Under the pieces are notes generated by a model that saw only the letters and a list, made by a program, of their open reading frames with translations, had not been told where the DNA came from and made no database searches. The position numbers were made by a program, and so were the translations under genes. From Polytrichum commune (lineage: Eukaryota > Streptophyta > Polytrichopsida > Polytrichales > Polytrichaceae), in assembly GCA_950295325.1 (NCBI GenBank), contig OX485808.1, positions 35,174,527 to 35,238,526 of the forward strand: a stretch of 64,000 nt of DNA. The letters are read 5' to 3'. This document shows, in pieces, positions 3,801 through 52,109 of the stretch. Numbering within the stretch: position 1 is the stretch's first letter; every line of letters begins with the position of its first letter.

Positions 3801-6800
3801 GTAAATCAACTTCGAAACAATTACTAGGGGTAGCGGGTCTAGGGTAGGGTTTGTGTTAGTGGATGAAAAGAAATTATTTTCTTGTTGAAAAAACTTGGAT
3901 GGATGACTTTGCAGGCTTGGATAGAGTTAATGTTCTCTACCTAAGTGTCAGGAGGAAAAATTCAGCGCGTTGTTTGAATTGCAATCTTCTTTCCAATTTT
4001 CTTTGATAGTATAAGTAAAAGAGGGTATTTTTAAATGATTCAACCAAAAAATATAATTACTGATAGGGTATATTAAAATACAAGCATTTACCTTTATTTT
4101 GAAAAATACCATAGCTTATAATCTTTTCCGCAAGGTAAATAGCCCCTGATAAATAAGTCATGAGCGCACGTGCATGCATTAATATAAGAGAGAGTGACCT
4201 CCCCGAGTAATTCTCTTGGACTCTATGGTAAATGAGCATGTATTCTTGAATTGAGTGTCACTCAATAAAAATTCCAACCCTTGGTTTCTTTACGATTTAG
4301 CTAAATAGTGTGTGCTTCGGGAATTAGTACCACCCTCACAAATTAGGATAATCCTACACCAACGGTGTGGCCAAGGCTTTAAAATAATAACACTAACTTA
4401 TATAGCGGATGAGAAGTAATAACAACGGCCGCACCCGCATATGTACTACCTAATCCGTATAGTTCAACAACCGTAAGTGAACCCCACTCTAGCCTAGCCT
4501 AAGCTTGGATCCTCGTCACACTCTCTAGTTCTATGGAATTCCTTAACCCTCCAAGAAATCCATCACAAGCAACTTCACTAACATTAACCCGCCATGCTCT
4601 AGCCATGTGGAACGAACTCACTCATGTAGTTTCCAAGAGGATAGAGATGACAATGTCTCAATATTTCCATTCAATTCTCTTTGCTCATACTCCCTGTAGG
4701 ACACCCACAAATAGTGCCACGTATCTACCATTCACATACCATTTGCATTCTTTTTGTGTTTATCCGTTTGAAATGGGGCCCGTGAAGGATTGGCCACAAG
4801 GAGTGTGTATAAGTCTAGGTTGAATTAGATGCGTACATTCGTACCATTTAGTATTAATTTAATGGTGCATTTCGGATGCCATTGTGGGCTTGCTACATCT
4901 AGGAGTGTGGACCACACTATTTTAGTTTAGTTTTCTATTTCTTTTTCCCATTCCAATCCAATTTAATAAAACATAAGGTCACATACTTCATGTGATGAGG
5001 AAGATACCTCATGCAATCCGATTACGTGTTGACATATGACGTGTACTCGGTGACATGTGATTATCATTGGGCGGGGTTGGGAGAACATGTTTACATTCAC
5101 ATCGGTAGAACCATTGATGTTAGGTTCTCTTTTCTTTATGCACGTGCAATATGTTCCCATGATCCCACCACTTTGTCCCATAACCATGTTTTGTAAAACT
5201 GTTTCAGGTTCACATATTTGAGGTTGTGATCAAGATGAAGTCTCTCTCTCTCTCTCTCTCTCTCTCAAACCTAATTTGTGCGAGGATCTTACCAAGTTAG
5301 TAACGAAGGTCTTTCTTCAACACCTTTGAGATGTTCCATCACGGGCTCTACCCCTTGTAAGGTTGAGGCATCTATAACTGGTAAAATAAGAGATTTTGCA
5401 TTTGTCTAGGAGAAGTGACAGCGGAAAATTATTTCCTTGCGAAGAGGAACAAATTCTAAGGAGAATTCAAAAACATTACACTCGTTTGCAAGAATATGAA
5501 AATTGCTCCAAATTTTGAAGCAGTGAAGTTAAGGTAACACATAGTCAATCTATAAGTCAACTCATCACCGCTCATCCAAATTCTAATGCTTGGCTAGGAT
5601 AATTGTCAAAACTCTTATGAGGGTAATCAATCACAAGATGCCGCCGCATAAACCTTAACTCCATTCGCCTAACATATAGATCTCATCCATGTCGGCATTA
5701 CATGACCCCCAGTGAGCAATTAGTGGACCTGGTCGACTATGCATGCCTCGACCTTAATATGTATGTAGTTGTTAGTTGTGATAACTTGCATTTTTTCCAA
5801 CTATAGTAGAGGCTCATGTTCCTGATCATGACCCCATCATCAATCTATAGGGTACTGGAGTTTTGATCAGGGTGGGACTAAATTTCAATCAAGCCGAAAC
5901 CAATAGTGCCATGACACATGTCCTGATTTTGAGTGCTAAAGTGAGGATAAATGAGCAGTTAAAATGAGCGGCTTTGACAAACTCTAGACATTGGTCATAT
6001 GCTCGGGCCAACTCCTGGCTTCAAAAATTCACAGTAATTTCAATCGAGGAAATAAAACTACTGAGAAATTTGCAATCCTCCCGATTTCTATCTTCCTACA
6101 TGGGGAAAAAAAATTAGCACCGCCTTATACTTCTCCAGATCTTGCGCAAAGCAAAACCTCTTAAGTGATCAGTTATGGGCGCCTCTACTCTATGTGATGC
6201 ACATGTTTAAAGTGAGATCCATATTCACAAGATGGAAAGTGTGAGAAATGTGCGGTACTTGAAATCAAAGGGTGAACCTAGCTAGATTAATTAGAAACAC
6301 TGAAGTGGTATGCGGATGGAGTGCATGTGGATTGCTCCTCTAGACCTCAAAATTAACACTATTACGGGGTTGACTTTTTGTACACTAGTCATGACAAGAG
6401 GAAAATCGCACATGCAATAACTCCCAAAATTAAATAAAAATCATCTTCTAGAACCCACTTGAACCGTCAAGAACGAGTGACTAACAATGCTCAAATCCTT
6501 GACATATGTCTAGAGATTTTTGTGAGCTCGATCGTATGCTTAAAATTGAGAAATATGACCGCAACCCTAAGCTCACGTATTGTGTGTTCATGGGGCGACT
6601 GCCAGCGTGTACAAGACAGAGGTCAAGCCAATGTTGCACTCTTAGTTTTTATATGCGGACATTCTCACCATATCCAACAATGATCTCCATTTTGACTTGG
6701 CTTCGGGCTTTGGCCTAACCTTCGAAGCCCATGAATCTTGTTCTCATTGGCTTGGGAGATGATGGAATGACTTCATATTCATAATCTAAGAGAGTAGTGT

Positions 6801-8557
6801 TATCCGTTAATGTGGGCCTTATGTTGTCACTCTTCTAATCTGACACTTATATGGTATGTGGCGTGTGGTTAAGAATGGACATTCAAAAAGACACGTGGCT
6901 ATGGTATTGGCCTCATATGTCCACAATAGAAAGAAAGGGAAAACGGAGCATTGGTGTTTCAACACCTACGTGAATAAGACGTGCATGTTCGCCTTATATT
7001 AATCATGCTATCATTGTGCGACATCAGCGCCTACCTTTTGGGGAGGTGGGGCTTGTACTGTCTAAGTCAATGCTTTAATTAACATGAGTTATGGATGGGG
7101 TGCCACGGGAGCTTGATTATAGTCCAAATTTCCTTGATTTAATACTAGATATGTGAAATATTTAATGGCAGTTTGGTGTATGGGTTTCAAGAGATTTTTT
7201 ATGTTTGGTGTTGGTTAATGGATTCAATGTTTTTTGGTTTTGTTTTGGTTAGGGTGAATATGTATCTTTGGGCTAGCCAAAAAAATTTGGTGGTAAAGTC
7301 TTATGGTGAGGGGTGTAAGAAGTAGGTCATTTTGTGTGAATCTATCCCGTAGCCATTGCATTCTTTTAGTTGTGAAGGTTGCGACATAGTTACCGTTGTG
7401 GTAAAAACAAATTGGGCTTCTAGACCATGGACTTGGATTGTGGGTTTATTTCTAATGATGTCTTCATCCGGGTGACATTCATGTGTGTTCAATGTTAGGC
7501 TAGTGAATTTAAGTGGTCGTCATATAAATATGATGTCTTTGGATTGTGTGTGGTTGAGGCAATCTTTGTGTGCTTGTGGTATTTGGTTTGTGTGGATCTG
7601 GTTGTAGAACTCAATTAGTAATGTTAGATTATGGTTAATCATATATAATTATTGTTTTGGTTAAATAGCTCGATCTCGTCTCTACATTTGCGGATGGTGC
7701 CTTGACACATGGTTTAAGATTGGCATAGGTATTATGTCTGATGCAATGGTGCACCCCATTTGTCTCTTTTTGGGTGGTGACTTTGGTGTGCATAATTGCT
7801 TGGAATTTGTATACCTAGAGTGGCATTCGTGGTATTGGGATTGGTGATGGTTGTGTTTTCGGTAGTTGTTGGGTGATGTGTGTTTGGGGAGTAGGAGGAA
7901 ATACTAGGTTTTCTATTTTCAAGGATTCTTTGATTATTTTGGGGCATGTTCGTATTTTTCTCGGAATTCGTCTATCATTAGTATGGCGGCTCCCTTGGTA
8001 TTTTGTATTTGTGTCAGGGTAGTGATGATGAAAATACAATTGAATCAATGCTTGCGTTCTTGAAATGAGTAGACTACTAGTTTGGGGTTCGGGCATCTAC
8101 TAAAGTCATTCATCATGGATGAAGGGTCTCCAGTTGAAACAAATCTCTAGAAGTCCATGCAAAACCATTAAATGTTTTGCCCACAAGGTTAATACGGAGT
8201 CCTTTCTGTTACTCCCAAAATCAGGTTGTCTTCAAATAGTCATTTCCAAGTTAAATATAATAATTCACTAAGTTTCCACCTTTCCAATGGATGACTTAAC
8301 ATCACACAACTTCATGGCTATGTCCATAGGAACCATGTATCACATGAGCATAATTCAACTTTAATTCTACAAATTCCCGTGTATGGGGAGCACTCATGCG
8401 TTGTGTAGTGTGAGGTTTTCAACAAGCAACTGTAAAGTACCAAAGTTTTTCATCGCCACCTCTTTCTTTGGAAAGAGGACATCACAAACTCATAGTAGTT
8501 GAGACTACTAGGGTCCAAATGATGTAATTTCTTCAACGAGGCCCAAGGAAAGTCCAT
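860..8557. other. Gene-free AT-rich intergenic region
   Basis: No reading frame here has a recognisable domain, credible splice sites or coding-like composition. The longest open frames are about 100 codons and occur at chance level. A pure TC dinucleotide tract lies at 5241-5266. I see nothing else that I can name. Confidence 0.6.
5241..5266. repeat. (TC)13 microsatellite
   Basis: An uninterrupted TC dinucleotide tract of 26 bases in non-coding sequence. Confidence 0.95.
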
Positions 8558-9144: not shown

Positions 9145-12100
9145 CTCTAAGTTACTCACCGCTCCAATTTTGTCACGACTCGCATGTAAGTGGCGATTAA
9201 GTTAAGTAGCCGTAGCAAGTGGCTTGAAGGATTCTTATACTGATTGTTTGATTGTTAGAAACTAGTGCCGACATGTGGCGCCCGCATGGCACTCCAAAAC
9301 GAGAGGTGGACATTTGTTGGTGCTCCCACATACGTAGTCCGACTTTGCAGCTTTGGGTGATTTTCATTTGGGCTTCTGAGCAAGGCTCAAGTACGAGTTA
9401 TGGTATGATAGGTGTAATGGACGTACATGATTGACTTGGCAATGATCCACATGAGGGAACTCATAAGTATCTTAAATTATCCTAGGGTGCCTCTTGGTTC
9501 ATTTTCTAATAAATCTTGAAGTGAGTATGAAGTTCCATGACGTGGGATCTGAGCAAGTCGCCACCAATGCAAGAATGACACGTGGCTAAACGCTCAGGAT
9601 AGTAAATTTTCGGTTTGTTTTTCATCAGCAGATCTTGATGACGCATCATCGAATCGAAGTTCAGACCTTCCATGATTAGTTTTGCTTATCAAAAGTGCAT
9701 GTTTGTTGATTCTTTAATGGAGTACGTAGGTCCTCTCGATTGTGTTCACTAGCTACCGAGTGTAAAGTAGTTCATAAAAAAAATCTAGAAACGTATTCCA
9801 ACATCTTTTACACATGTGTTTTTAGGGTGTTTGACGTTCTTTGGTCCTCACCGTACCACAAACCAATGAAATATAGGTGTCCGATGAGAAAAGTTAGTTG
9901 TTGCATGTCTTGATTGTTTATTTTAAAGTTGAGGCAAACAACACTTCTATAGTAAGAACATAGGTTGAACCAAAGCTCTCATTTCACGACTAGCATACGA
10001 GTCCTACCCAATCGTCCCACGTCAATGAAAGAACAATGCAACTCTACTGTTGTGCTAGATTCGCAAATTCTCTAGTTGCATAGGACAAGTTTCCAGTGAC
10101 ATAAGTCAATTGCCTAAGATGCTTGTAGTGTTTCTAAATGCCCCAATCCCACTTGATTTTAGCTTAGCTTAAAAATTTGTTCTAAAAACACAGCCTTCAC
10201 ACCATCAAAGCTATCTAGTCTTGAACCTAGTTGACAAAGGACATGGCATGGTTTACAAGCGGATGTTTTAAACCCTCAAGCACCGACCCTCCCATCGGTT
10301 CCCAAAGATGAGGCAAGAATGTAGGACCTTTAAAAATGTTGCCTCCGACCATTATGATTGGTTGCTTCTAGTCTTAGCTACGAGGGCACGAGGAGCTTCA
10401 TCAACAAAAACTGATGGTATAACATATGCGTGGCAAGGCATATGGACATGGGACAAAAACTAATCCAACATGTCACTGCTCGACAAATGAAACAATGAAC
10501 ACATATGAGTCAGAGCCACTGAACTCAAAACCTACTCCAGAGCAAGTTCTTGTAGGTGCACCGGTACAGCCAGGTGCCTCCGTCATAACCGAGAGAAGCT
10601 TTACCCGGTTTTTAGAAAAGACTTTGGTTATTTGGTATCAAAGCCAAGTGGGAATGCGCCCTAAGCTAGTTGTACAAAAGTTTGCAAAGTATATGATTAT
10701 AAGATAGACCCTTGAAGTGCGGTGACGCATAAAGTCAGGAGTGGGTGAGGGTAAAGCAAACGCGCTTTCATGTGCTACGGAGCCCTCCCTTACACTTTGT
10801 AGAAGTTTGGGAGGCCTTAAGTCAACACTTGATCAGACTTCTTACATCCTATGCTCGCCCTCTACACTAAGTAGAGTCTCCCTTTCCACACTACCACAAT
10901 TAGTACACTTATATAGTACATCTTACTTATAAGTGGCCCACACCGGTGCTCTTTATTCCAATATTCGTGAAAAGCCGAATGTCGAATTGAATTGTTGAAG
11001 TGATGAGAAAGCCACATGTGAAGGATACTGTATCTCTTCATTCAAATACGGACACGTTCATCCAAAATTTGGCGATTTCATCCCCAAAAATATCATTTAC
11101 GGGGGTGATTTTGGTGGTTTCATCCATGGGGAAAGTGAGGGAATGTTTGGTTATGTTTTTTTTAAGGTTTTGCATTTTGAGTTTTTGTTTTTTTTGTTTT
11201 AAGAAGAGGATTGGTGTGCACTATTCATCACTTGACATCGACTTACGTTATCTAATTGTTTGACAATCACCAGGGTGGCAACTAGAGAGGGTATCACAAG
11301 ATACTTGGTACGTGAAGACCACTATGATCAACATGGTAAAGTTTCATCCCAAGTCTCGAAAATAGGAGAACATATTTAAAAAGCGTTCAACCAGGTGTGG
11401 GCTTTCAAATTATATGACTGAAGCGCAGATTGGTGTTAAAGTTGCAAGATTCGATGGCAAGTGGAAAAAAAACAATATCCTTGGGAGATCACGATTAGAG
11501 AAGGAGGCTCTATTCAACATCGGTTTCAACGCCAATTTGGTAGGATCAATGCATACTTCACTTGTGTCAATTATTTGTGTGGTGGGCTACGCCTAGTCAA
11601 ATGTGATGCCTTAGAATTACATTGCTTCAAGTTTAGACGTAACATGCCAACACATTCCAAACAACATAGTTATATTAAAAATTGCTCAAAGTTTGGATCA
11701 TTTGGCTATCACTTTTCTACTAAGCCATTTAGAACACACCCAAAGAGACTTTGAACTCTTGGCATTCATGACGTCTATCCTCCGGATTGGAAATATGAAA
11801 CTAAATAGTTTAAGGAAGTCGGTACCATCAAAAGGGTCAAGAATGTCCTCATATGCAAGTGTTTGATAAATAGATAACTTTGGTTCTTGAAGTGACACAT
11901 GTTCAACAACCAACTTGACACTTTCCCACCCGAATGAGAAGTCCACCTGAGAAAATAAATAAACAAATAACCAATGTCGGACAATCTGACGTGAATTTGA
12001 GCCCGTTGGCCCTACCCTGCTCAAGAATCCGCTTGGTGCAGGGTGGGGTTTGTTGCCTACCTTGCAATGGGTGGGCTCTCGGCTTCCTACCAACTTAGCT

Positions 12101-22551: not shown

Positions 22552-23540
22552 AATTAGTGTGGTTCCCACTAAATTAGATGATGTTTAGTGCAACAACAAA
22601 GGTGAAATTATTGGTCTCGGAGGTGGAAGGATGTAGGAATGTAGACATATTGGAGGTGGAGTGGATGATCAGCGCCACAATCATACGGCAGTCTATCTAT
22701 GTAGTTGCCACCGACTTAGTGCAAGACAATTAGTGTGGGTCGATGATGAATAGTGTGGGCCACACTAAACCGGACGGTTACTAGTTAGTGTAGGAAACTT
22801 AAGGTCTTGGAGTTTATTGGTCTTAGAGGTGCAAAGGAAGGATGTAGGAGCCACAAGTGTAGATCGGAGGCGGTCCGGTGGAAGATTGGGCCACAATCAC
22901 ATGACAAATCTATGAATGTAGTTGCCACCCGGTTACTAGTTAGTGCAAAACAATTGCGTGGGTGAATAGTGTGGGCCACACTAAACCGGACGGTTACTAG
23001 TTAGTGTAGGAAAGGCCTTGGAGTTATTGGTTTTAGAGGTGCAAAGGAAGGATGTAGGAGTCACAAGTGTAGATTGGAGGCGGTCCGGTGGAAGATTTGG
23101 GCCACAATCACATGAAAAATCTATGAATGTAGTTGCCACCCGGTTACTAGTTAGTGCAAAACAATTGCGTGGGTGAATAGTGTGGGCCACACTAAACCGG
23201 ACGGTTACTAGTTAATGTAGGAAAGGCCTTGGAGTTATTGGTCTTATGGGTGCAAAGGAAGGGTGTAGGAGTCACAAGTGTAGATTGGAGGCGGTCCGGT
23301 GGAAGATTTGGGCCACAATCACATGACAATCTATGAATGTAGTTGCCACCCGGTCACTAGTTAGTGCAAGACAATTGCGTGGGTGAATAGTGTGGGCCAC
23401 ACTAAGCCAGATGGTTAGTGTGGCAAAGACCTTGGAGATATTGGTCTCGGAGGTACACGGGAAGGATGTAACAGCGGAGGTAGATATAGAGGCTTCCAGC
23501 AGTAGATTTGGGCCACAATCAGCTGAGCCGCCTGCAGCAA
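22552..23540 (+). repeat. Tandem array of ~200-217-bp units
   Basis: The phrase GTGTGGGCCACACTAA recurs near 22752, 22969, 23179 and 23389, giving periods of about 217, 210 and 210. A more diverged unit precedes it from about 22552. Each unit carries CAAGACAATT..GTGGGTG, GGAAGGATGTAGGAG and GGGCCACAATCACATGA. The last unit runs into GC-richer sequence. Open frames here repeat the same peptide on the minus strand and simply reflect the periodicity. Confidence 0.85.
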
Positions 23541-39540: not shown

Positions 39541-40027
39541 AACCTAAGTTACTGTACCTCGGTGGACAGCAGGTAGTCCAATGTTTTGGATCTCGCGAAG
39601 TAGTCTGTATGATTTTGTAAGCTGCAAAATGCTTTAACACTATATTCGGTATTTGGAGACTTTTTGTTGATTATGAGACTATATAAGGATGCACCTTTCA
39701 AAATTGGACCAGTAATGACGACTAAAAATTCCATATGTATAATGGTATGCTACTATTATTATACATAAAGGCATGGAAGTGAACAAAAATGTGAGGCATA
39801 CATGAAAATAGTTGCGTATGAAATCACAACTCGTTATGAATGGAAGGGAAGGTGCGAAGAATGAATGGAAATTGAATGAATTAATTGGGATTGAAATACA
39901 ATTATAATGGAAATACCATCAATGTCTTGAGTAACTTGGAATAGCATAGAAAGTAAGCACTTAAATATGTTCTACACCTAAGCCCATTTAGGGAGTCCGT
40001 CCCACTAGTACGCTTCTAGACGTCACA

Positions 40028-41028
40028 CTAGTCCGACCCATTATTTTTTTTGGCGGCTAAGCCCTTTTTTTTGGCGGCCTCCATGGCTCTAAAAATCTCA
40101 GGCCCACGACTGTATCCTTGTGTGTTGCCTGGACAGGAATATGTGTCGTTCTTGCATGTTTCAGGACGCGCTCCCGAATTGTAAGAGGTGGTATTATAAG
40201 TAGAATGCGAGGGTGTTTGCGAAAGGGAACGTCTTGCGCTTCTCCGGAGGGCCAGACAACGATCGGACTCGGAAGATGCGGCCTTGAGGGCGTGCCTATC
40301 CAAGGAGGACGTGGAGGAGGGCCGGGCACCAAGCGAGCGGGTAACCACCTGCGAAACAACGTCATAGGAAGATAAGAATAGGAATGGAGTGGGGAAAATA
40401 ATGAGGGCGGTTTGGGATGGGCGCTCGTAAAGAGAACGGCACGCAAACGGAAGACAAGGAAAGCAAAAGCGAGAAAGGGGTTCAGGGTTGAGGAGGGCAC
40501 CTTGGCTTTGGGGACGTCCATGCGGGGAACGGTGGGAACGAGGGGGGCGTCGACGGGAGCATCCGGAGCCGATGGAACTATTGCAATTATGTTGGATGGC
40601 GGGGGGGAGTCGAGGCGTGGAGGGCCCACGATCGCGGAGGACGTTGCGGGGGGAGGAACGGAGTCGGCGGGGGAGGTGTGGCAACGGGGGCCTTCCATGC
40701 GGAGACGCCGGCTCGGCCCGCGACGAGCGACGGCGTCGTCCCTCGAGGGCGAGAGGTGTCCCAAACGAACGAGCGTCCGTTTCTCCTTGGAGAGGGGGGA
40801 GGGCGACGGGGCGTAGGCGCGGGCGACAAGTGGTGGGGGCGGGCTGTTGACGACGCCGTCGTCGATGCCGACGTCACGGGAGTAATCCACGGCCGAGGCC
40901 GCGTCGACCGCCGAGAACTGGTAGAGGGATGGCATTTGGAAGCCCGTGACGTCGCGGGAAGGGGAGGCAGGGGGCGAGAGGGGACGGGAAGGGCCGTCGA
41001 CCACAGGGGCGTCGCATATGGGGGCAGA
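40028..41028 (-). CDS. Proline-rich hypothetical protein, two predicted exons
   Basis: Exon A is 41028-40501, preceded by TTGCCCATAG. It joins exon B, 40348-40028, across a 152-bp intron (donor AAG|GTGCCC, acceptor TTTCGCAG|GTG) with matching phase; total about 282 codons. Exon A is Pro/Ser/Ala/Asp-rich and very GC- and CpG-rich. Exon B continues VVTRSLGARPSSTSSLDRHA, has an Arg-rich patch (CLALRRSARRSLSQ) and ends in a Lys-rich tail (AAKKKGLAAKKNNGSD). No catalytic domain is recognised; it is probably disordered and possibly nucleic-acid binding (inference). No start codon is assigned, because a 5' exon is missing or this is the tail of the FCP1-like unit 112 bp upstream. Confidence 0.4.
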
Positions 41029-41139
41029 CTATGGGCAAGAACAACAACAACAACAATCACAACAACAAAAGACATCCAAAAACGAAGCAAGCATTAGTAA
41101 ATGTGAACCACATGATACAAGCAAAGACATGGAGGCATT

Positions 41140-41907
41140 TCAAATCAATTTATTGAGTTTGGCGAGCCTCATGATGCTCTTGAATACATTATCGCGGGGG
41201 CTTAGCGCCGCATTGCCGAAGGGGTTGGACCTAACAAAAAATGGGATGCTACCGGCGTGGAGCACGAGCCTTCTAAGGTAGGGGGCTAGCCTATCGACCA
41301 AAAATGTGTCTTGCCTATCGCCGGTCCAAGTGTCCGGGAAGATGACGTTGCCCGGGGGGTTCAAGACACTCTTGGTGGGGCTGTCGTCGATGAGGACGGT
41401 GTTCTCTGGAGTCGGCCACCACCCGTGCGGCGTCCCTTGCAGACGGGGGACGCCTCGCCAGAGTCTCGAGCGGAGGACCTTGAGGAACTGTTGTCCTCCG
41501 CCCCGACCGCCAAACTTGGGCACCGGTTGACCTTTCTCGTCGAGCAGCTCGTCGCAGTCCTCTTGGCCGAGGACGAGGCAAGGGCTCGGGAGATCGCGGA
41601 ACAAGAAGTGCACGATGGGCTCGGTGTTCTCCATGACCATGGAGCTCCACACAATGACGTGAGCGAACTCGACCACCTCGCGAAGGAAGTCACGCAAGCC
41701 GGGACGGGCGCGGACAGCCTTGCGGTTAATGAGGGTGTCGAGCTCGCCGTCGTAGTCCCTTTCGTCGGGGTGACGGAAGGGACGCGTGGGGACCCTTGGG
41801 ATGTGTTGGGTGTGACACAACACCCCGTTGAGGTCAAAAACGATGAAAGGTTTGTTCCGGGTGGGAGGTCCACTGGTAGAGGGGTTGCGACCAATCTCCG
41901 GGGGGTC
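41140..41907 (-). CDS. FCP1/NIF-type HAD phosphatase-like protein
   Basis: One exon of 255 codons plus stop, entered from the acceptor TTCATCACAG at 41908; the 5' exon is not identified. FCP1-homology proteins dephosphorylate Ser/Thr, often on the RNA polymerase II tail. Visible motifs are IVFDLNGVLCH (motif I), RARPGLRDFLREV, VIVWSSMVMENTEPIV (motif II region) and ENTVLIDDSPTKSVLNPPGN (motif III). It ends in a conserved-looking tail, WTGDRQDTFLVDRLAPYL. The canonical DxDxT/V is DLNGV here, so the second Asp, the general acid/base, is Asn and classical activity is doubtful. Four copies of the ACGAACG palindrome lie 130-290 bp upstream. GC content is high, as in the units on either side. Confidence 0.7.
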   Translation of the reverse strand, partial: DPPEIGRNPSTSGPPTRNKPFIVFDLNGVLCHTQHIPRVPTRPFRHPDERDYDGELDTLINRKAVRARPGLRDFLREVVEFAHVIVWSSMVMENTEPIVHFLFRDLPSPCLVLGQEDCDELLDEKGQPVPKFGGRGGGQQFLKVLRSRLWRGVPRLQGTPHGWWPTPENTVLIDDSPTKSVLNPPGNVIFPDTWTGDRQDTFLVDRLAPYLRRLVLHAGSIPFFVRSNPFGNAALSPRDNVFKSIMRLAKLNKLI

Positions 41908-42040
41908 CTGTGATGAACAACTCGACTAGTTTAATTCTATGATCCAATAATGAAATTTTGCGTAGAAAATGAAGACGGTGCATTATGGGGAAAGACGAGG
42001 AAGTGAGGAGAGTGCAAGGAAAATGTGCTCAAGGGCACAC

Positions 42041-42198
42041 TTGCGAACGAGCGTTCGTGAATGAAGGCTGCGGGGGCGGTGCGCATCATTTACGAGCGCT
42101 CGTTCGTGAGCGCGGCTACACGTACATTTACGAGCGGTCGTTCGCGAATGAGGTGGACAGTGGGTCGCAGCCTTTCACGAACGAGCGTTCGCGAATGA
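42041..42198. repeat. Four variant ACGAACG-type palindromes 5' of the FCP1-like unit
   Basis: Copies at about 42041-42060, 42090-42110, 42127-42148 and 42173-42196. They vary (GCGAACGAGCGTTCGT, ACGAGCGCTCGT, ACGAGCGGTCGTTCGC, ACGAACGAGCGTTCGC) and are less perfect than those in the neighbouring gene. Confidence 0.8.
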
Positions 42199-42476
42199 GG
42201 TGGGTATGCAAGAATGAACATAATCTCATCAACATATACAACATACGAGAAGGGGTCGAGGGCAGAGAATTTGAAGCAACGCGATGCAGATAACATAGGC
42301 TCATATATTAATCCGTTGAATATTTACATTTCTCACGTGATAGTCTATCACATTTTCCTAAGGCAAAATGATGCCGTGTCCTACAAAACTGTTCGGCCCT
42401 AAGGGGACCGCTGAAGAGGGCTCTCGCAAGGCCACTGGATGTCGATGAAGAGAAAAACATCGCGATGTTAGAGAGG

Positions 42477-42498
42477 TTACGAACGCGCGTTCGTTAAA
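42477..42498. repeat. ACGAACG palindrome in a predicted intron
   Basis: TTACGAACGCGCGTTCGTTA lies between a GTAACT donor (just below 42525) and an ATCCAG acceptor (near 42436) on the minus strand. Confidence 0.8.
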
Positions 42499-42581
42499 AA
42501 ATGGTATTCTCAGAGGAGAGTTACCTCGTCATCGGGGAGGGGTAGCGGCGCTGGACCGAGCAGCAGGTCCCTCTTCAACGA

Positions 42582-42603
42582 TTAACGAACGCGCGTTCGT
42601 AAC
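42582..42603. repeat. ACGAACG palindrome in coding-like sequence
   Basis: AACGAACGCGCGTTCGTAA. It lies past the TAG at 42664, in the same reading frame, where read-through would give Val-Thr-Asn-Ala-Arg-Ser-Leu. Confidence 0.8.
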
Positions 42604-42663
42604 CTCCACAGCTGCAGCCGCCTCTGTCTCCATGGCCTCTGCCTCACGCTCCGGTTGAGAGGC

Positions 42664-45600
42664 CTATGTTGCCTGGATGCGCAGCGCGTCTTCTTCCTCG
42701 GCGCCCAGGTCGAGCGCGTCCATCCTGACATCCTCCATCCACGCCGCATGGGTTTCTTCCACGTCCATCCCATGCACCCCTGGTGCGTCATTGGGGCTCC
42801 CCTGCGTGTCCTCCACAATGACCATGTCAGTGTGTCGCGCAGAGTCATCACCATGTCTGTCTACTACCCTGGGGACGACGGTGAAAGACGATGCATCGGT
42901 GTATGAGGGCAGTCCTACCCTTGAAGGGGGAGGGGTGAGGACTGGAGGACCTGAAGATTCACGAACGCGCGTTCGTAAATCCTCGTCCTCCTGGATGGCC
43001 GCCGCCACAGCATCGTGGGAGGTGGTCGAGGGAACCTCTGGTGGCGGAGGAGTGCCAACAGGCGTGGGGTGGGGCGCCTGCTGGCGGGAAGGCCCTCCGG
43101 TGAACATGCCCGGTGGAGGGGATTGGGAGGGGTATCCTCCAGTGAAGGGGTAGGCCGGCTGGGGGGGCGCCGAGAAGCTCTGCATACGCTGGAGCATGGC
43201 GAGGATGGCGTCCGTCTTCTCGTTCGACTGCCTCAGCTCCTCCTGAATTGCGAACATTTTCTTGGCATTCTCCTCTGCCGCCTTCGCCATGTCCTCCTTC
43301 ATCTTTTGCTCGAGCTTGGCGTTAAGCTCGGCGACGGACAACGCCTCCTCTTTGACCCTCTTGTTTTTGTCAAAGTCTACCCCCAGCTCGACCATGATCT
43401 CCATGTCGCCCTCGTCCTCATCGGAGACCTCGATGATTGCCCCCGGAGGCAGCTCCACGTAGGGGGTCTTCTTCATCCTCCGCCTCGTGTTGCGGTACTG
43501 GTCCAACGTCGGTCGGGACCGTTGGTCCAGAAGGTCGAGGTTCTCCATCTTGGGAACCACGATCGGCCTGGGCGACACGGATGTCGAGCATCCCCCGGGA
43601 GTGCCGAATGCCTCCGCTCCAGACGTTCTCGCGGGGAGGACATCTTGGGTTGTCCCCGCCGACGACCCCGTGTATCCACCCGGAGTCCCTTGCACGTCGG
43701 ATGGATTTCCCGACGGCGCCAAAATGCGGAGAGGAGTGACGTCCAAGGATCGGAGGATCGCCTCGACGTTGTAGGAGGGCGCGGGCTCGTCGTCGTCCGT
43801 CTCCATGGCGGGCATGCCTTCGTCGACGGGCATGTTGATGTCCGTCCTCGGGAGGGACATGTCCTCCAGGTCCATCGTGGAGGCCTTCGCCCTGTGCACG
43901 TGGAAGTCCTCCTCGTCGATGGCTTCAATGAAGCTATTGACGACCAGCCCCAGCATCTGAGATTCAAGCAAATACGTTAGAAAATACGAACGTGCGTTCG
44001 TAAACATCAACGACGAGAAACAATGTCATCAAACCCAAGACAAGTTGAGGTGAACTTTACGAACGAGCGTTCGTAAATATTAGTTGGAGAGCTTACCATC
44101 GCAGCGTACATGAACTTGCTGCCGCCACAAACGTTGTACACGGTCTCTCCGCTTATTGCCACGCTCTGCAAAACGGAGACGTAGAACTCCAACCTGAGTT
44201 CCATCGCCGGGAAGACAGTGTACAAGGTCTCCTGCAGCAGATCCTTGGGAGGGGGATGGGGGATGCTGTAGATCTTCTTGAACGTAGTGTTCGCCTTGAC
44301 AGGGGCTCGCCCATTCCGCAGCGCGTTGTACGTCAAGAAGACGAGGCTGACCGCCCCCACCTGTTTGTTCCCCCTGGCCTCGTTGATGGCCACGATCCCT
44401 TCCGTCTTGGCGGGCAGGTAAGTGCTGTGGAAGATGCTGTACTCAAATTTGATCGACTTCTCGTACAGGTCGACTACAGCAGAGAGCTTCTCCTGCTCGA
44501 CTATCCACAGCCAAACGTGAGGCTCCCTCATGTCCGGAGACTTGTGCTCCTTGAACTTGGCCATGAAGGGGTCGTAAAAAGGTATGTCCTTCCCCCCCTG
44601 CCTCGACGCACCGGGGATCCCCCTGAAATCGATCAGGGCAAATGGGCACCCCCGTCGATCCTCCCTCACCTCGGCCCTGCTCATGGTCCGGTCCCACTTG
44701 GAAAATGTCACCCTCTCCACTCCTTTTGTCAACAGACAAAATCTGGCCACTCCTTCGAATGTGGCCAACCTCTTCCGCGTCAAAAAGCTTCTGTATTGCT
44801 CCACCTCTTGGGGATCCGTCTCGGTTTTCTTTGTCCTCTTGTTCCCCTTCTGCTTCAAAATGGAGGCGTGCTCCTTGACAAGACAACGCATTGAGGGTCC
44901 GGAGATGTTGTAGTCGACCTTGAACATCTTCCAGCTGGCCCAATTAATGTCCCCGTCGGCTAGGATGAGTGCGTACTCTGGTATTAGGGCGCTCAACTCC
45001 CTCATTGCAGCAGTCTTCAGCTTGCGGTGTTCGCACCATTCCTTGATGGAATACGTGCCGGGCTTGTGTCTTGGCCTCTTCAAAAATATCTTCGGGTATG
45101 GGATGGTTCTTCCCACAGTGTTCCCAAGAAGATGCACCGCGCACCTCTGCAACTCAGACTCTGTTAACCCTTGAAGGGACCTGAAGAACTCCCTCAGTAG
45201 TGGAGGGGCCTCCCCGGTCTTCTCCGCGCTGTACTTCTCCTCGGTGTCGGGGTTGACCAGATCGCCCGAGCTGTGCGCATCAAAAAATTGTGTCCACAAC
45301 TCCCAAGTGTCCCTGTTGCAACAAATGAGGCGGAGTTCACCCTTGAGCTCCAGGACAGACTTGGTTGTTGTAGACTTTATGTCGATGGAGGACAACTTGT
45401 CCACCATCGCGTCGCAGAATGCCTGCAGCAAGAAAAACATCAGTAACGCACAAAATACGAACGCACGTTCGTAAGTTTGAATGTCAAAGAACTTGAAAAT
45501 TTGAATGTCAAAGATATTTACGAACGTTCGTTCGTAAACTCACCTTCCATTGTGGAGACGGCGTCTTCGCGTTCTCCCTTTCTTTAGGGGGGCACCCGTG

Positions 45601-46839
45601 GGCGACCCAGACGTCCCTTGCAGCCACTATGTTGGCTGCCCACGACGCCTCGAAGGCCTTGATTTTGTTGCCGGAGTTGAGGAAGGTGGATATCTTCCGC
45701 AACTTGTCCCAATCGTCCGACCACACCAAGAACGCCTTCCAGTAGCGCAAGTCCTCCTTCAGCTCATGCTGGAAGTTGTCGTCCTTGAGAATTATTTGGG
45801 ACGCCTCCAAGCTGTGTTGGCCGTCTATGATCCAGAACTCTCCATTCTGGATCCGTGGCCAGTCCTTCTCCGTCGGACGGGATGTCAGCCCCTTCGGCAT
45901 GACGCAGACGGTCTGCCTATCCCACTTGACGTTGTTCATTAGATTATTTATCTGCCACTTCACACCACCGCTTTCGCGAGAGCGAACCACCCATTTGTTG
46001 GGGGACATCTCGCACTTGAAGCAGTCCACGTTGAATGTGAAGTGGCGTCCCATGGGCCAGCAATCCTTCGAGTAGTTGTTGAAGTCTCGAAGGATCCTCG
46101 TGGCCTTCACAGCGTCAGGGTTCTCACCCTTTTTCAAGGGGGTGGGCATTACGACAGGCGAGGTCACCTCTGCGGTCTCCGTTACTCCCGATTTCTCCAT
46201 CTCCTCCCTTGTCCTCTTCGATGGCGTGGAGTGTCTACTGGGGCCCTCCGTCGCCCTGCTAGCGGAAGGCACAGGCCTGGGTGCACTTCTAGATCCTCCT
46301 GCCCCTGATGTGGATGGTTTCCTGGGGCTCTTCTTCTTCTTGTTTGCCTCAGTGACCACACTGTTGTATTTGGAGATGTTCAATGCAAGGGCGGTCAATT
46401 TCCTTGCAGTCCAGTATGGGCTCAACGCATATTTGGAGAAGAGGCCGTCCAGGTCGAAGTGCTTGGCATCTTCCGCTACGTTATTGGTGGCGTATTGGTA
46501 GGAGAAGGTATTTTTCTGAAAATGCAACAAGAGGTTGATATGATCCTTCTTGTTCTTCATGTCCAGAATTACATACTCCCCCTGGGCCTCTATGGACTCT
46601 ATCTCCCACGTCTTCATTTGAACCCACTGTTCGGGCTGGTCCGGTCTTGTCTCCAGCTCGTAGGTGAAGCGCATGCAGAAGAGGCCGTCCCCGATCTTCT
46701 CTGGCAGTGCCGTCCACTCCCCCATGAAGTCTTCCTTGGGGACATAGTTGTCGTTGCCGTTATCGTCTAACACCGACTCTGGGAGGCCATCGACCTTCAC
46801 CGCGAACATCTCAATGGCGCTTCTGCTTGATCTTGCCAT
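42664..46839 (-). CDS. ParB-like / degenerate DNA-methylase-like fusion protein, 3 exons
   Basis: Exons are 46839-45544, 45422-44097 and 43956-42664. All junctions are phase 0 with good GTGAGT/GTAAGC donors and TGCAG/CTCAG acceptors; about 1304 aa. The ATG follows directly on TTCTGTTGCAG, so a 5' UTR intron is likely. Exon 1 has a ParB/Srx-like signature, FWIIDGQHSLEASQII (DGQH 339-342). Exon 2 resembles a beta-class N6/N4 methylase in motif order: FALIDFRGIPG (about 694-704) where S/DPPY would be; VWLWIVEQEKLSAVVDLYEK (about 737) like the segment after motif IV; and VYNVCGGSKFMYAAM+MLG (862-877) like motif I. The catalytic PPY is absent, so methylation is doubtful. Exon 3 is mostly disordered with a coiled coil (AELNAKLEQKMKEDMAKAAE onward, about 1080-1130). 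After the TAG the frame stays open for 44 Glu/Ala-rich codons to a TGA at 42529-42531, so the TAG may be a nonsense change. Its real function is unknown. Confidence 0.6.
42958..42979. repeat. ACGAACG palindrome inside the third exon
   Basis: TTCACGAACGCGCGTTCGTA. On the minus strand it is read in frame as Leu-Arg-Thr-Arg-Val-Arg-Glu, in the middle of the open frame. Confidence 0.85.
43983..44004. repeat. ACGAACG palindrome near the 3' end of intron 2
   Basis: ATACGAACGTGCGTTCGTAA, about 27 bp before the CTCAG acceptor of the 140-bp second intron of the ParB-like gene. Confidence 0.9.
44056..44077. repeat. ACGAACG palindrome near the 5' end of intron 2
   Basis: Perfect form with TTT and AAA flanks and centre AG, about 20 bp inside the GTAAGC donor. 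It pairs with the copy at 43983 at the other end of the same intron. Confidence 0.9.
45455..45474. repeat. ACGAACG palindrome near the 3' end of intron 1
   Basis: ATACGAACGCACGTTCGTAA, about 32 bp before the TTGCTGCAG acceptor of the 121-bp first intron of the ParB-like gene. Confidence 0.9.
45517..45538. repeat. ACGAACG palindrome abutting the intron 1 donor
   Basis: On the minus strand the donor GTGAGT runs straight into TTACGAACGAACGTTCGTAA, so the palindrome begins within the first bases of the intron. Confidence 0.9.
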
Positions 46840-46867
46840 CTGCAACAGAATATAAACAATTAATGAC

Positions 46868-47499
46868 TTTACGAACGAACGTTCGTAAGTGACATGCATA
46901 TCCCACAGACTACGCAGTGTTAATGCGTCTTTGCAATTGATGTAATTATATTTACGAACGTTCGCTCGTAAATGAGGGGTTGCAAGATCATATAAATTTT
47001 TAGTATTGAGTTTACGAACGAGCGTTCGTAAAAGATATGAAGATCAAAGAGACTACTCGTCATGAATGTGTTTGTAATATATTTGGTTATTTTTACGAAC
47101 GATCGTTCGTAAAAGATATAGGTTTTATAGGTTTGGATTCATTTACGAACGTGCGTTCGTAAGTATGTCCATTTGGTCTATCTTTTCGGATATTTGGTTG
47201 ATTTATCTTTCGTAAGTACATGTGATTTGTCTTATTGGTGTTCGCAAAATTGTATTTGTTCTTTAGATATTCATAGAGGTTCATATTTAAGTTAAGGTTC
47301 CTTCTGAGTGATATTTTGAGTATATTTACGAACGTGCGTTCGTAAATATAGATCATTTCAAAGAACGTGGAGTGCGTATTTACGAACGCACGTTCGTAAA
47401 TGGAGGTTCGGTATGCAGTATATGTCCATTTACGAACGAGCGTTCGTAAATGGAGGTGGGTATGCAGTGTATGTCCATTTACGAACGAGCGTTCGTATA
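46868..47499. repeat. Cluster of nine ACGAACG palindromes upstream of the ParB-like gene
   Basis: Copies start at 46868, 46951, 47011, 47092, 47142, 47325, 47379, 47429 and 47478. Most are 22 bp: TTT, ACGAACG, a variable dinucleotide (AA, TT, AG, AT, TG, CA), CGTTCGT, AAA. The 47092 copy is perfectly self-complementary. The interval is otherwise AT-rich, so the CpG-rich copies stand out. The last two copies sit in a ~49-bp direct duplication (ATGGAGGT..GTATGCAGT..ATGTCC). This is the promoter or leader side of the minus-strand gene. Confidence 0.9.
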
Positions 47500-47964
47500 T
47501 GTGATGGTTTTGGGATCCCCTGTCCGTACATATATGTATTCGTGTATATACGAATACGTATATGTATATAACTCACTTATTAGCTACTCTGCTTGCAGCC
47601 GTGCCTGCAAAATTTTGGTCAGAATGATGCAATTCTTCAATCATAAAGCAATTGAGATGCAGAATGAAACATGAAGAAAAGAGTGATAGTTCACATTGCA
47701 TGTAACAAAAGAAATTGAATTCAAGAAGCAACATTTTCAGAATGTGAGAGGAGTTGGAAAGGATAACAAATTACATTGAAATGCTGCACACTGCAATCCC
47801 TGCTTCTTCTCTTTCTGAAAATCCCAGAAATCCTCACAACTGCACACTCAATTGCCTTTCAAATGCACACTCAGATAACTCTCTAATGCAGACCTCAAGC
47901 CTTCACAGCTTATATACAAACCCTAGTATACTCCTATGTACACAAAACTCACAACCTTGTAGCT

Positions 47965-48260
47965 CTCAAGCTTCTGAACTCTTAAGCAAACCCTAAACTC
48001 TCAAGCTTCCCTAAACTCTCAAGCTTCACTTCTGAAGCTTCCCTAAACTCTCAAGCTTCACTTCTGAAGCTTCCTTAAACTCTCAAGCTTCAACTCTGAA
48101 GCTTCCTTAAACTCTCAAGCTTCTAAAGATCACCCTCAAGCTCTCAATCCGAAACTCTGAAGCTTTCCTACTCAAGCTCTCAAGCTTTTGAAACTCACAA
48201 ACTCACAAGCTTTCACAATGAAAGCTTTCACAAACTCAAAAGCTTTCACACAAGCTCTCA
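47965..48260 (+). repeat. CAAGCTT minisatellite
   Basis: The phrases CTCTCAAGCTT and CTGAAGCTT alternate many times, with two or three nearly exact 36-bp units around 48000-48120 decaying outwards. Confidence 0.8.
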
Positions 48261-48470
48261 ATCTGAAATCTCTCAAAACTTGCAACAAAACTAATTTAAA
48301 ACTTCAAGACTAAAAAAAGCAAGAGCTTCGCTCTCTAAACGCTCCGCTCCTCCTCTCCTCGAAATGACAAATGAGGAGAAGAGGAAGGGGCGCGGGGAGG
48401 TAGGTGCGCCGCTAGGGTTTCCCAGCACCTGCCACGTGGCACAACTCCACTGGCTAGGGTTGGGAGAGAG

Positions 48471-48542
48471 ATGGGATGGGATGGTATGGGAGGTGATGGG
48501 AAGGGATGGGATGGGATGGGATGCGATGGGAGATGGGAGATG
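48471..48542 (+). repeat. (GGGAT)n microsatellite
   Basis: Impure GATGG/GGGAT pentamer tract of about 70 bases in non-coding DNA. Confidence 0.85.
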
Positions 48543-48978
48543 GTTGTATATTGGAACCCTTCATGTTATTCTCATGCTTTGACATATTTATATGTAATGG
48601 ACGCGTTTAAGGCATTAACTTGACAAGCTTAGTTCAAATACATGAATTTTACTCGTTTTATTTCCTTAGTACCTCTACATTTGGATTCCTTGTAAACATA
48701 TTTTAGGAAAATATGCTCAGTTAATTCGTAATAAACAATGCATGTCACTCCCTAGGTTGTCAATGTAGAATCCACCCCCAAAGATATATATCTGGTGTTT
48801 TAAAATATAGTTTATGTAAGAGCTAGATATCTTTCAATTAATTCGATGGTTCCTCAAATAAATATTACATGCAAAAAAGAATTCATAATAATATGAGATT
48901 GCGCAGAGTTGCTATACGATAGGATGTCAATTCAAGTTCTAATATTAGGTGTTAGCTTAAACTAATGCATTTCTGGAA

Positions 48979-51658
48979 GTGAGTTTGTGGGATCATGAGC
49001 GGCGGCATAAGCAAACACAATTAGCTTTGTTGGCCACAACACGTCCTCGCAAAGGCCTCCGTAGATATGATTCAAACCGTGTGCCTCGCGGAGATAAGGA
49101 GCGTCGACGGGATCGGCTTTTGGGGGACGAATCTATCCGTCTAGTGTCCGGCAAGGATTGTTGCGCGAGGAAATGTTGCCAATTTTTCCCGCGGGAGAAA
49201 ATTAGATCTCTGCGTCAAGAGATGTGGCTTGCGGATTTTCGTATGAGGTCGGCTAAGAAACTCGAGGTCCACAGAAATTTGCACCTTGATACCCATGGGC
49301 ATAAGGTGGTGACACTTGAGAATGTTGATGTGTGTTGTACAGCGTGGTATACCATCCACGCCGTCTCCAAGGCTGACTTTTATAGGTTTCGAAAATATTC
49401 ATCGTTGGGTCGCCGCTCTCGATTTCATGGCAACTCGGGCACAAAGAAACCTAGGGAGGCTACACTGCAAGCGTCCGCGACACTATCCACCATCATAGTG
49501 CCATTGGCCGATGCAATGCCCCACAAGACGAGGACATTGTCGTCAGGGGAGAAGGTTGTTCAAATGGTGTTGCCCACGGGCACAAAATGGAAGAACATCT
49601 TAACGGACATCAATGAAGTGGGTCGCATAGCGGGATGTGGGCCCATTTCTTTGTCCAAGTTGAGTGTGATTAAAAACCAGCAGTTTGCGGAATACATTCT
49701 GAAAAGACCCAGGGACAAGTTCGCTAGATGTACGACGTGTGAAAAATACAAAGGTCTTCGAGACGCCCACCCCATAGGCACTGAATCTCATTCCAGACAC
49801 CAGAAAAAATATATTGAACATGTCAACAATCAAGAGGCACACCGTCAAGATTACTATAAGAATCGTGCTCTATCCATAATGAGGCCCACAGAGGTTCTAA
49901 CAATCATCCATGATAAAATGGACCACGCCAAAACCGCATGCCCTTGTTATGCACGCAAAATAAAGGCCACGGATGGTCTCTTCAAGTTGCCCGTAGCTGT
50001 CACAAGTTTGTATGAAATCACAACTACGTGTTTAAAGTCTATCCAATTTTCTTGGGTGTGTTTGGCAAATGTCCAACTCCATACATCCGTTTAGTGGTTA
50101 TTTGATTATTTTGGTCACGCATCGTTTGTTTTTTCCAGGTATGATTGCCCACGGCCATGGGGACGTAAAGTATGCCCATTATGGTTTGGATTTTTACCCT
50201 GGGGATGCTAACCACACGGTGGGTTCATTTGCAAAACTGTTGCGCGATCTTGAGAAGCCACCGGTACATTCTTCCCGTGCACTTTTTGATGGTTGTGGAA
50301 CCACATCCCTTTATGAGGCAGTGCTTTTGGGGAAGGAGGTTTGTATGTCGTCATTGCCAGAACCACCCGGAGAGCCCATTTGTGCAAAACCATTGCCTCC
50401 AACTCTCCACGTTCAACTTGATAATTGTGCGAAGGACAACAAATGTCGATACGTATTTTGTTTTTGGTCATTGCTCGTGGCGAAAGGAATCTTCAAGGAG
50501 GTGTTTGTGTCTTTCTTGATGGTGGGACATACACACGACGACATTGATGCATCATTCGGACGGTGGAGCATGAAGTTGCATGAAGAAGATTTTCCAACCA
50601 TACCTCTTCTTATGAAATCGTATATGGATTTGGACCATATGCCAGTAATTCCGCACTTGATTGAGGAAGTACCAAATTTCAAGGCCTTCATCAAGCCATA
50701 CATGTTGAAGGGAGGGGACCGTTTGGTGGGGCATACCAAAGCACAACAATTCCGATTTTATATGAGGGACGATGGTCTTCCGGCCATGCAATTCAAGCTT
50801 TTGTGCACATCTCCTAATTGGGGCCCGGATGATGGTATACTCGTATGGCGTCAAGACAATGATGGGAAATGTTTGGTCCCGGATGGGGAACCAAAGCCTT
50901 GCAAACCCGAACCCATGAGGAATGGGCCGGAAATCATCAAAGGCATATCCGGATTCATTGAATATTGGAAAGAGTTGTGCGAGGAGGACATCACAAGACA
51001 TGTTAGAGATACCCATGAACCGTTGATCGCGTATTGGGATCGCATTCGCTCAGCCTTGATGACACTTGGTGGCGACACCCGTACGACTTTGACACAAGGA
51101 TTTTGGCCACAAAGTCGTTTGACGGTTGTCGAGTCCGATACTATGTTTTTCAGCAATGGAGACGTTCGTGAAGAGTTCGCAATGGACGAGCATTACGTTA
51201 GCCCTGCCCGCAATCGACCGGCACCGTCGTTTCGTGTAGGTGTTGATTGCCATGAAGGGTATTTGGTCCTCGTACGAGCTGGGGATGAGGAGCATCCCAA
51301 GCCAATTTGATTGGTAAAAGCATTGTCTTCACCCAATTTTGTTCGAACTAGCCCCAACTTTCGTCAAATTGAGGTGGAATATTGTCGTCCAAGCACTAAA
51401 GACCACAACGTGCTCCGCACTTATTTAGGTTGGGACACCAAAAAGAATTTTAAGTGGACAGTGGACTCAGCGTACACACCGGTTTGGATAAACACGGATA
51501 CTATACTTTGTGCTTGGAAGCCGCGCAAAGGTTCCAACACAGAAGCAATGACCATCCCCCAAAAACATATACATTTTGCCAAAGACAACTTGGCACGTAT
51601 TGCAGCTGCGGAAAATGACGCCGAGAATGGATATGAAGCGGAAGATGGAGATGGGTAA
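48979..51658 (+). pseudogene. DUF7869-type RNase-H-like (DDE) transposase, one nonsense codon
   Basis: Coding pieces are 48979-50005 and 50139-51307, with a phase-matched 133-bp GT..AG intron, then 51311-51655 in the same frame after a single TGA at 51308-51310. The N-terminal part has a Cys-rich block (KDCCARKCCQFF) and REMWLADFRMRS-like sequence. The catalytic core shows HDKMDHAKT (first Asp), HVQLDNCAKDNKCRY (second Asp) and VGHTHDDIDASFGRWS, the signature I associate with the DUF7869 domain of plant and animal transposon-like proteins. It ends in an acidic tail. Reading through the TGA, the context KPI-stop-LVKALSSP fits a Trp codon, so this looks like one recent TGG-to-TGA change. The open frame begins after a stop at 48958 with a GTG rather than ATG, so the true start or 5' exon is missing. 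Terminal inverted repeats were not found. Confidence 0.7.
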
Positions 51659-52109
51659 ACATAACATAGGTGAAAGTTAACGGCGGGAAAAAACATTAGT
51701 ACTTAGTAGTCTTGGTTTTTAATAGACTTAGTAGACTTGTCACACTCCATTGTGGTATACGTTTGGGATGTGCCATCCAAAACCATAAGAACCTTACTTA
51801 TGGGATGCGCACCCCAAACTCTATAATGACATAAACCATTTGTTTTTTATATTCGCTTGTTATTTTCCACATGGAGTTCACGTTTTCATTATAATTGCAA
51901 TTTTCTATTTTTAGTATTAGGAATATTCTTTACGTGCGAATTTTTAAATTGTCATGTTCTTGATGTTCCCAACATTCCATATGCCCACAATATTGGCATC
52001 CCAAACTATGGGCATATTTTATTTTGAGACTTTCAAAAGTCTCCGATTAACGAATATAGTGTTCTTTATAAAAGAAATAACTTTTAATCGTCACCGGAGT
52101 CTCAGACAC
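51659..52109. other. AT-rich flank of the transposase
   Basis: Non-coding. Phrases such as GGGATGCGCACCCCAAACT, GGGATGTGCCATCC and GGCATCCCAAACTATGGGCA recur and may belong to the transposon's 3' end, but I could not find matching inverted copies 5' of the gene. Confidence 0.35.

Follow-up and report, generated by a model that had tools for sequence, protein, structure and literature searches.

Why should one palindrome be repeated about 20 times within 5.5 kb of a plant genome, around a single gene? The question was raised by a 64-kb window of the Polytrichum commune genome (throughout, the window is the whole stretch of 64,000 nucleotides analysed, positions 35,174,527 to 35,238,526 of contig OX485808.1), in which a sequence-only reading had remarked on the palindromes, had ascribed them either to selection by a dimeric DNA-binding protein or to the spread of a tiny fold-back element, and had likened the locus to ParB proteins and their parS sites. 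The palindrome locus is a copy of a high-copy DNA transposon family, here called family 1, with a gene for a DUF7869 protein and a gene for a protein that we call ParB-like. The palindromes are probably family-private sites, bound by an element-encoded protein (likely the ParB-like one) for self-activation, with both protein and site changing between families.

The palindromes belong to a transposon family

The window holds 22 matches to ACGAACGNNCGTTCGT at up to two mismatches, 15 of them exact, against a shuffle expectation of 0.06 and a shuffle maximum of one, so the earlier count of about 20 stands. All 22 lie within 40765-47496, and the match at 46875 is an off-register overlap. The sequence-only reading had limited them to 42041-47499, which is right for 21 matches; the degenerate one at 40765 lies outside that interval and inside the element. 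Sites were found, as had been described, in introns, upstream and in two coding places, both of them in exon 3 of the ParB-like gene. The arms are near-invariant, again as described, and the consensus from pooled copies extends to TTTACGAACG-NN-CGTTCGTAAA, a 22-bp palindrome of 10-2-10 geometry. The central dinucleotide varies, but not freely as had been claimed: over 266 pooled sites (up to two mismatches), which come from the fetched copies and are not independent, C takes the first position in 55% and G the second in 42%, and TA occurs once.

The palindrome had also been thought confined to a single gene locus. Instead, the 408-Mb genome contains 5,602 exact copies, against four for a reversed-pattern control. 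The genome mean is one site per 73 kb, and among the first 100 sites listed 80 of the 99 gaps are shorter than 500 bases (median 85 bases), these sites forming six clusters. Five clusters with 77 sites (C1:640-646k, 2235-2244k, 2286-2289k, 2367k and 2457-2466k) were read, and all go with a family-1 element; the sixth (C1 2269-2276k, 23 sites) was placed only by an end match and an exon-1 match that bracket or overlap it. C1 site 2457669, which falls outside the long alignments, belongs to a 183-bp fragment of the element that an insertion has separated from the rest. The genome-wide search for clustering near paralogues of the gene, which had been proposed as a check, thus found clusters with the element, not an even scatter. 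The coding parts are repeated as well: exon 1 matched in all 97 scored of 1,089 first-look candidates, and exon 2 in all 95 scored of 1,156, at 84-100% identity. Given these copy numbers of palindrome, exon 1 and exon 2, a single host gene locus that recognises itself must be rejected in favour of a transposon family in many copies.

Terminal inverted repeats of 29 bp, at about 90% identity, are present in the three elements compared, and a 4-bp target-site duplication flanks all four elements with both ends read (those of the window, C3, C4 and C1:639070). The left-end pattern, at up to three mismatches, has 1,071 forward and 1,115 reverse matches; because right ends also match at three mismatches, these are counts of ends, not of elements. 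Twelve end-anchored samples were picked by hand along C1-C3 from 100 exact end matches listed and are therefore not random; one (L024) lay on the wrong side of its end and was dropped, and nine of the 11 usable ones have one or more exact palindromes within the first 6 kb. DUF7869 itself occurs in several groups of the genome (all 150 scored matched, of 1,491 candidates), and the DUF7869 protein is probably the transposase. In the open-licence literature searched, DUF7869 was named nowhere.

The C3 and C4 copies are about 16 kb long. In the C3 copy the DUF7869 gene, whose start codon is not fixed, runs leftward and the four-exon ParB-like gene runs rightward. The 23 palindromes of this copy comprise nine 5' of the DUF7869 gene (5519-6572), seven directly before the ParB-like ATG (9889-10356), five intronic ones (introns 1-3) and two that lie in exon 3, and about 3.3 kb without sites separates the two arrays. 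The window copy has lost about 3.6 kb, which held the array 5' of the DUF7869 gene as well as some of the gene itself. The element at C1:639070 (9.49 kb, with intact ends and a CATA duplication) keeps only a remnant of the NLI-interacting-factor (NIF) domain from its genes, and yet has 33 palindromes.

Selection on the sites

Between subfamilies of family 1, the palindrome arms are identical in 56 of 56 columns in intron 1 and in 54 of 56 in intron 2, against 101 of 163 and 116 of 182 other ungapped columns (62-64%) in the same introns. The comparison supports the earlier suggestion that the palindromes are selected, as sites of what appears to be a dimeric type. In a set of 13 copies, CpG-type changes number 22/1560 in the arms and 62/1466 in other noncoding sequence, and other changes 12/1169 and 743/16568, so that both types are three- to fourfold rarer in the arms. 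Among non-CpG changes, those found in a single copy likewise show a deficit in palindromes (6/1169 vs 321/16568 in noncoding sequence).

Sister families with palindromes of their own

A sister family, read over 9 kb at one locus (L040), has no exact ACGAACG palindrome there. Its DUF7869-gene parts are 66-71% identical to those of family 1 and its exon-1 protein 35% identical, and it carries a different motif, TGGGTCG-NN-CGACCCA, at 29 sites with up to two mismatches (17 exact). Fourteen of these lie 5' of the DUF7869 gene, eight upstream of the ParB-like ATG, and seven in a stretch that starts directly behind the inferred splice donor of exon 1. At a second locus of this type (C1:621464-622792) the same motif stands before and directly after the exon, and genome-wide it occurs 10,055 times (control 1). 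A third family (L039), whose DUF7869-gene parts are 40-61% identical, carries ACGGGTG-NN-CACCCGT at six sites close to its DUF7869 gene; this motif occurs 971 times in the genome (control 3). In 30 first-order resamples of each of these two loci, no palindrome with 7-base arms appeared more than once.

The motifs are private to their families. None of the family-1 elements fetched contains an exact family-2 or family-3 motif, and the four family-2 sites seen in one fetched stretch (L002) lie past the end of the element. In the two families where both were read, protein and motif both differ. That a related transposon of this genome has a palindrome of equal shape but other letters, in the same kinds of place, suggests a code by which every family marks its own copies and which the family's own protein reads. 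The link between protein and sites that the sequence-only reading had proposed thereby gains support from the sister family, although binding itself is something we infer.

The putative ParB-like protein

In-silico splicing of the C3 copy leaves a continuous reading frame for 1,607 residues, which include an IDGQHS segment and end in a NIF phosphatase domain; in the window copy an early stop interrupts the 3' part of exon 3. Comparison of subfamilies shows the gene to be under purifying selection, with a ratio of nonsynonymous to synonymous divergence (dN/dS) of 0.07-0.12 in exons 1-2, at a dS of about 0.7-1.2 where not saturated (two of the three exon-1 dS comparisons are saturated). The ratio is 0.17-0.24 in exon 3 and 0.12-0.18 in the NIF exon. 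The usual nucleophile motif of NIF phosphatases is DxDx(T/V). Here the domain reads DLNGV at this motif, which makes catalytic activity uncertain.

We use the name ParB-like with reservation, and membership of that group is putative. What stands of the earlier assignment is the IDGQHS motif, identical in three aligned sequences and among the most conserved parts of the protein between subfamilies, together with a sub-threshold match of one 170-residue piece to GmrSD_N (E-value 0.043). The motif resembles the DGQQR/DGQHR motif that is assigned in PMC4619093 to the ParB/sulfiredoxin fold. No ParB family, however, was returned by Pfam, NCBIfam or PHROG scans, which leaves the parS analogy not established. 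A helix-turn-helix family of the kind that reads parS was likewise absent from Pfam and NCBIfam scans of exons 1-3 and PHROG scans of exons 1-2, which a diverged one could escape. Searches against solved structures gave nothing convincing (the best was a Cas1 chain, E-value 0.04), and a single-sequence structure model of exon 1 had a predicted local distance difference test score of 34, too low for use.

Two other ideas about the gene were dropped. A methyltransferase-like segment suspected by eye at the exon 2/3 junction had no profile support, NCBIfam and PHROG scans included. A viral origin was rejected, as neither exon 1 (12 stretches matched its pattern, none of them confirmed as a relative) nor the 22-bp palindrome pattern (no match) was confirmed in the viral_contigs set.

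Proposed role and alternatives

In the reading that we favour, the 10-2-10 palindrome would label one DUF7869 transposon family. The element would encode a trans-acting protein, most likely the four-exon product that joins a DGQH (ParB/sulfiredoxin-like) segment to a phosphatase-like domain of the type acting on the C-terminal domain (CTD) of RNA polymerase II. This protein would bind, as a dimer, the sites 5' of both genes and in the introns, and once bound it may turn on the family's own copies; the most probable means would be to counteract silencing by the host or to promote transcription. With protein and palindrome both changed in related families, each family would then activate only itself and its own non-autonomous derivatives.

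Several observations weigh against this reading. CpG transitions private to one copy, and hence later than insertion, are not significantly rarer in palindromes (20/1560 vs 24/1466 in other noncoding sequence, p 0.45, 13 copies), so lasting hypomethylation of old copies is unsupported; five young copies had given 1/566 against 20/1706, which the 13 copies did not confirm, and hypomethylation read from CpG decay was rejected. Two of the 11 usable end-anchored samples lack palindromes over the first 6 kb. For the third family, the 9 kb read yielded no ParB-like gene, and the evidence that protein and motif change together comes from two families. The DGQH domain is weakly indicated, by the motif and one sub-threshold match, and GmrSD_N did not recur in the equivalent pieces of the second subfamily or the sister family. 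Changes within palindromes lean towards those that an RNA stem tolerates (19 vs 7 events, p 0.029, post hoc). Finally, the protein on the sites could be that of the DUF7869 gene, or a factor of the host.

On this last point, the palindromes would bind either the DUF7869 protein itself or a transcription factor of the host, exploited for promoters and intronic enhancers, and we consider it unlikely. The arrays do stand 5' of both genes, and transposases of other elements bind subterminal repeats. Here, however, the sites are internal, the C3 arrays starting 3.9 kb and 8.2 kb inside the left terminus and other sites being intronic, so that transposase-binding repeats in the narrow, subterminal sense were rejected. 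Between the sister families, moreover, the DUF7869 protein has kept 66-71% identity and the ParB-like protein 35%, while the motif has changed wholly. Against a host factor in particular stands the finding that the first 100 sites listed all fall in the six family clusters (77 of them read directly).

The palindromes might instead act in RNA, as hairpins in introns and leaders that serve splicing, transcript stability or small-RNA evasion. They lie towards both splice sites in introns 1 and 2, and the wobble-tolerant lean given above is lacking in other intron sequence. Against this, the lean is, on few events, equally strong upstream (10 vs 3) and in introns (8 vs 3). Dense arrays, 33 sites in all, persist in an element without the genes, and a fixed 2-base spacer with a variable centre, common to three families, would be less expected of a hairpin loop than of a dimer on DNA, which makes this explanation improbable in our view. 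We give hardly any credence to the palindrome as a tiny fold-back parasite, or as a neutral by-product of tandem duplication, spreading within the transposon. Some arrays are indeed tandem repeats, and the f17M copy gained an extra intron-2 palindrome by local duplication. But none of the first 100 sites listed is outside the six clusters of the transposon family, the arms are kept at fixed intron positions against the 62-64% background, and the corresponding places of the sister family are taken by another palindrome; a mobile mini-palindrome was rejected on the first two of these grounds.

Beyond binding of family-private sites by the element's own protein, a broader scheme can be entertained, although we hold it rather doubtful: a new kind of self-addressing throughout a superfamily of plant transposons, by private 10-2-10 codes, with a reader that would diverge faster between families than the transposase and would join a ParB-fold DGQH domain to a polymerase II CTD-type phosphatase, so that only self copies would have their transcription machinery acted on. 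Its origin would be independent of that of VANC.

Relation to known systems

How a transposon can escape silencing without waking every other transposon is still an open problem, and the one answer that has been studied well in plants is VANC of Arabidopsis. VANC proteins belong to the DUF1985 family and VANDALs are Mutator-type elements; DUF1985 was absent, at E-values up to 0.1, from the Pfam scan of exons 1-3. PMC5735166 and PMC10398659 describe the VANC21 motif as a 9-base oriented motif in introns, intergenic and terminal non-coding regions that multiplies as tandem repeats, and report both binding by VANC and loss of DNA methylation. The moss system resembles VANC/VANDAL21 (Hiun) in having a short motif, clustered in the element's own non-coding parts, rare in related families and multiplied in tandem, and the action of related proteins of related families on different targets is a VANC feature too. 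It differs from VANDAL21 in the DUF7869 gene, the 4-bp duplication, the DGQH and NIF protein, and the 22-bp palindrome with its 2-base centre. Non-coding clustering matches that of the VANC motif except at the two exon-3 sites. The working principle is already known from VANC; the moss element uses unrelated parts for it, and a palindrome of another geometry.

In maize, Spm/En encodes the protein TnpA and has repeated short CpG-containing subterminal sites, with a role in demethylation. The moss element is similar in combining an element-encoded protein with repeated short CpG-containing sites, but these are internal, 5' of genes and in introns, and the element is of a different type. It recalls ParB-parS in that palindromes cluster near the gene of a possibly ParB-fold protein; unlike ParB-parS, it gave no ParB family in scans, and the DGQH segment points to the DGQHR/GmrSD branch at most.

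Searches of the open-licence literature (the motif with transposon or palindrome, VANC with moss, ParB with transposon, moss or NIF) returned no description of this element. The system looks like a second answer to the silencing question, from unrelated proteins. One genome holds two families in which protein and site both differ and a third with yet another site, with more than 16,000 sites together. It would open the code between protein and site to deciphering with simple binding assays, and would demonstrate more than one origin of family-private addressing.

Features of the window copy and other observations

Table 1. Features of the family-1 copy in the window (window coordinates)
Feature	Position	Strand	Basis
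DNA transposon copy, 12,428 bp, internal deletion relative to copies of ~16.1 kb	39636..52063		collinear 97.8-99.6% alignment with C1, C2, C3 and C4 copies; ends read
Target-site duplication CTTT, left	39632..39635		ends read
Target-site duplication CTTT, right	52064..52067		ends read
Terminal inverted repeat, 29 bp, ~90% to other end	39636..39664	+	ends read
Terminal inverted repeat, other end	52035..52063	-	ends read
Further degenerate palindrome (1 mismatch)	40765..40780		pattern match; inside element
Exon 4, NIF (HAD, CTD-phosphatase-like) domain	41140..41907	-	PF03031, E-value 2.9e-16; predicted spliced to exons 1-3
Intron 3, five palindromes (42043-42494), four degenerate	41908..42524	-	pattern match
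Exon 3, two palindromes (42961-42976, 42585-42600) inside the C3-copy reading frame	42525..43956	-	splicing in silico
Intron 2, two palindromes (43986-44001, 44059-44074)	43957..44096	-	copy comparison
Exon 2	44097..45422	-	splice sites; without protein-family match
Intron 1, two palindromes (45457-45472, 45520-45535)	45423..45543	-	copy comparison
Exon 1, IDGQHS motif in 3' part	45544..46839	-	splice sites; purifying selection; sister-family homologue
Palindrome array upstream of ParB-like gene, 9 in-register copies (up to 2 mismatches)	46871..47496		pattern match
DUF7869 gene, probable transposase, 5' side truncated by internal deletion	48961..51310	+	PF25273, E-value 1.9e-40; deletion by alignment
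Junction of ~3.6-kb internal deletion	48975..48977		alignment: window copy skips C3-copy positions 4748-8360

An open frame at 40057-41028 shows no purifying signal (dN/dS 0.43-1.10, where divergence is very low), and we do not count it as a gene. Over this right end of the element and its orthologous parts, dS between subfamilies is 0.02-0.05, against about 0.7-1.2 or saturation in exons 1-2, so subfamilies seem to have exchanged their right ends or to have had them homogenised. Rearranged elements were also seen. For example, in a family-1 copy at C2:17168501-17188500 (L014/L015) the DUF7869 gene is in two oppositely oriented parts at the element ends, which is what aberrant or hybrid transposition could leave. 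In two other stretches (L018 and L020), a reversed right-end segment follows directly after element position 5433, near 5.5 kb.

Single exact matches to the 22-bp palindrome occur in an Omnitrophota genome (L037, near 7960) and in a Dyadobacter genome (L038, near 745). Elsewhere in the window, a 211-bp tandem repeat of 3.4 copies (22747-23470) contains a short internal palindrome, AGTGTGG-N-CCACACT.

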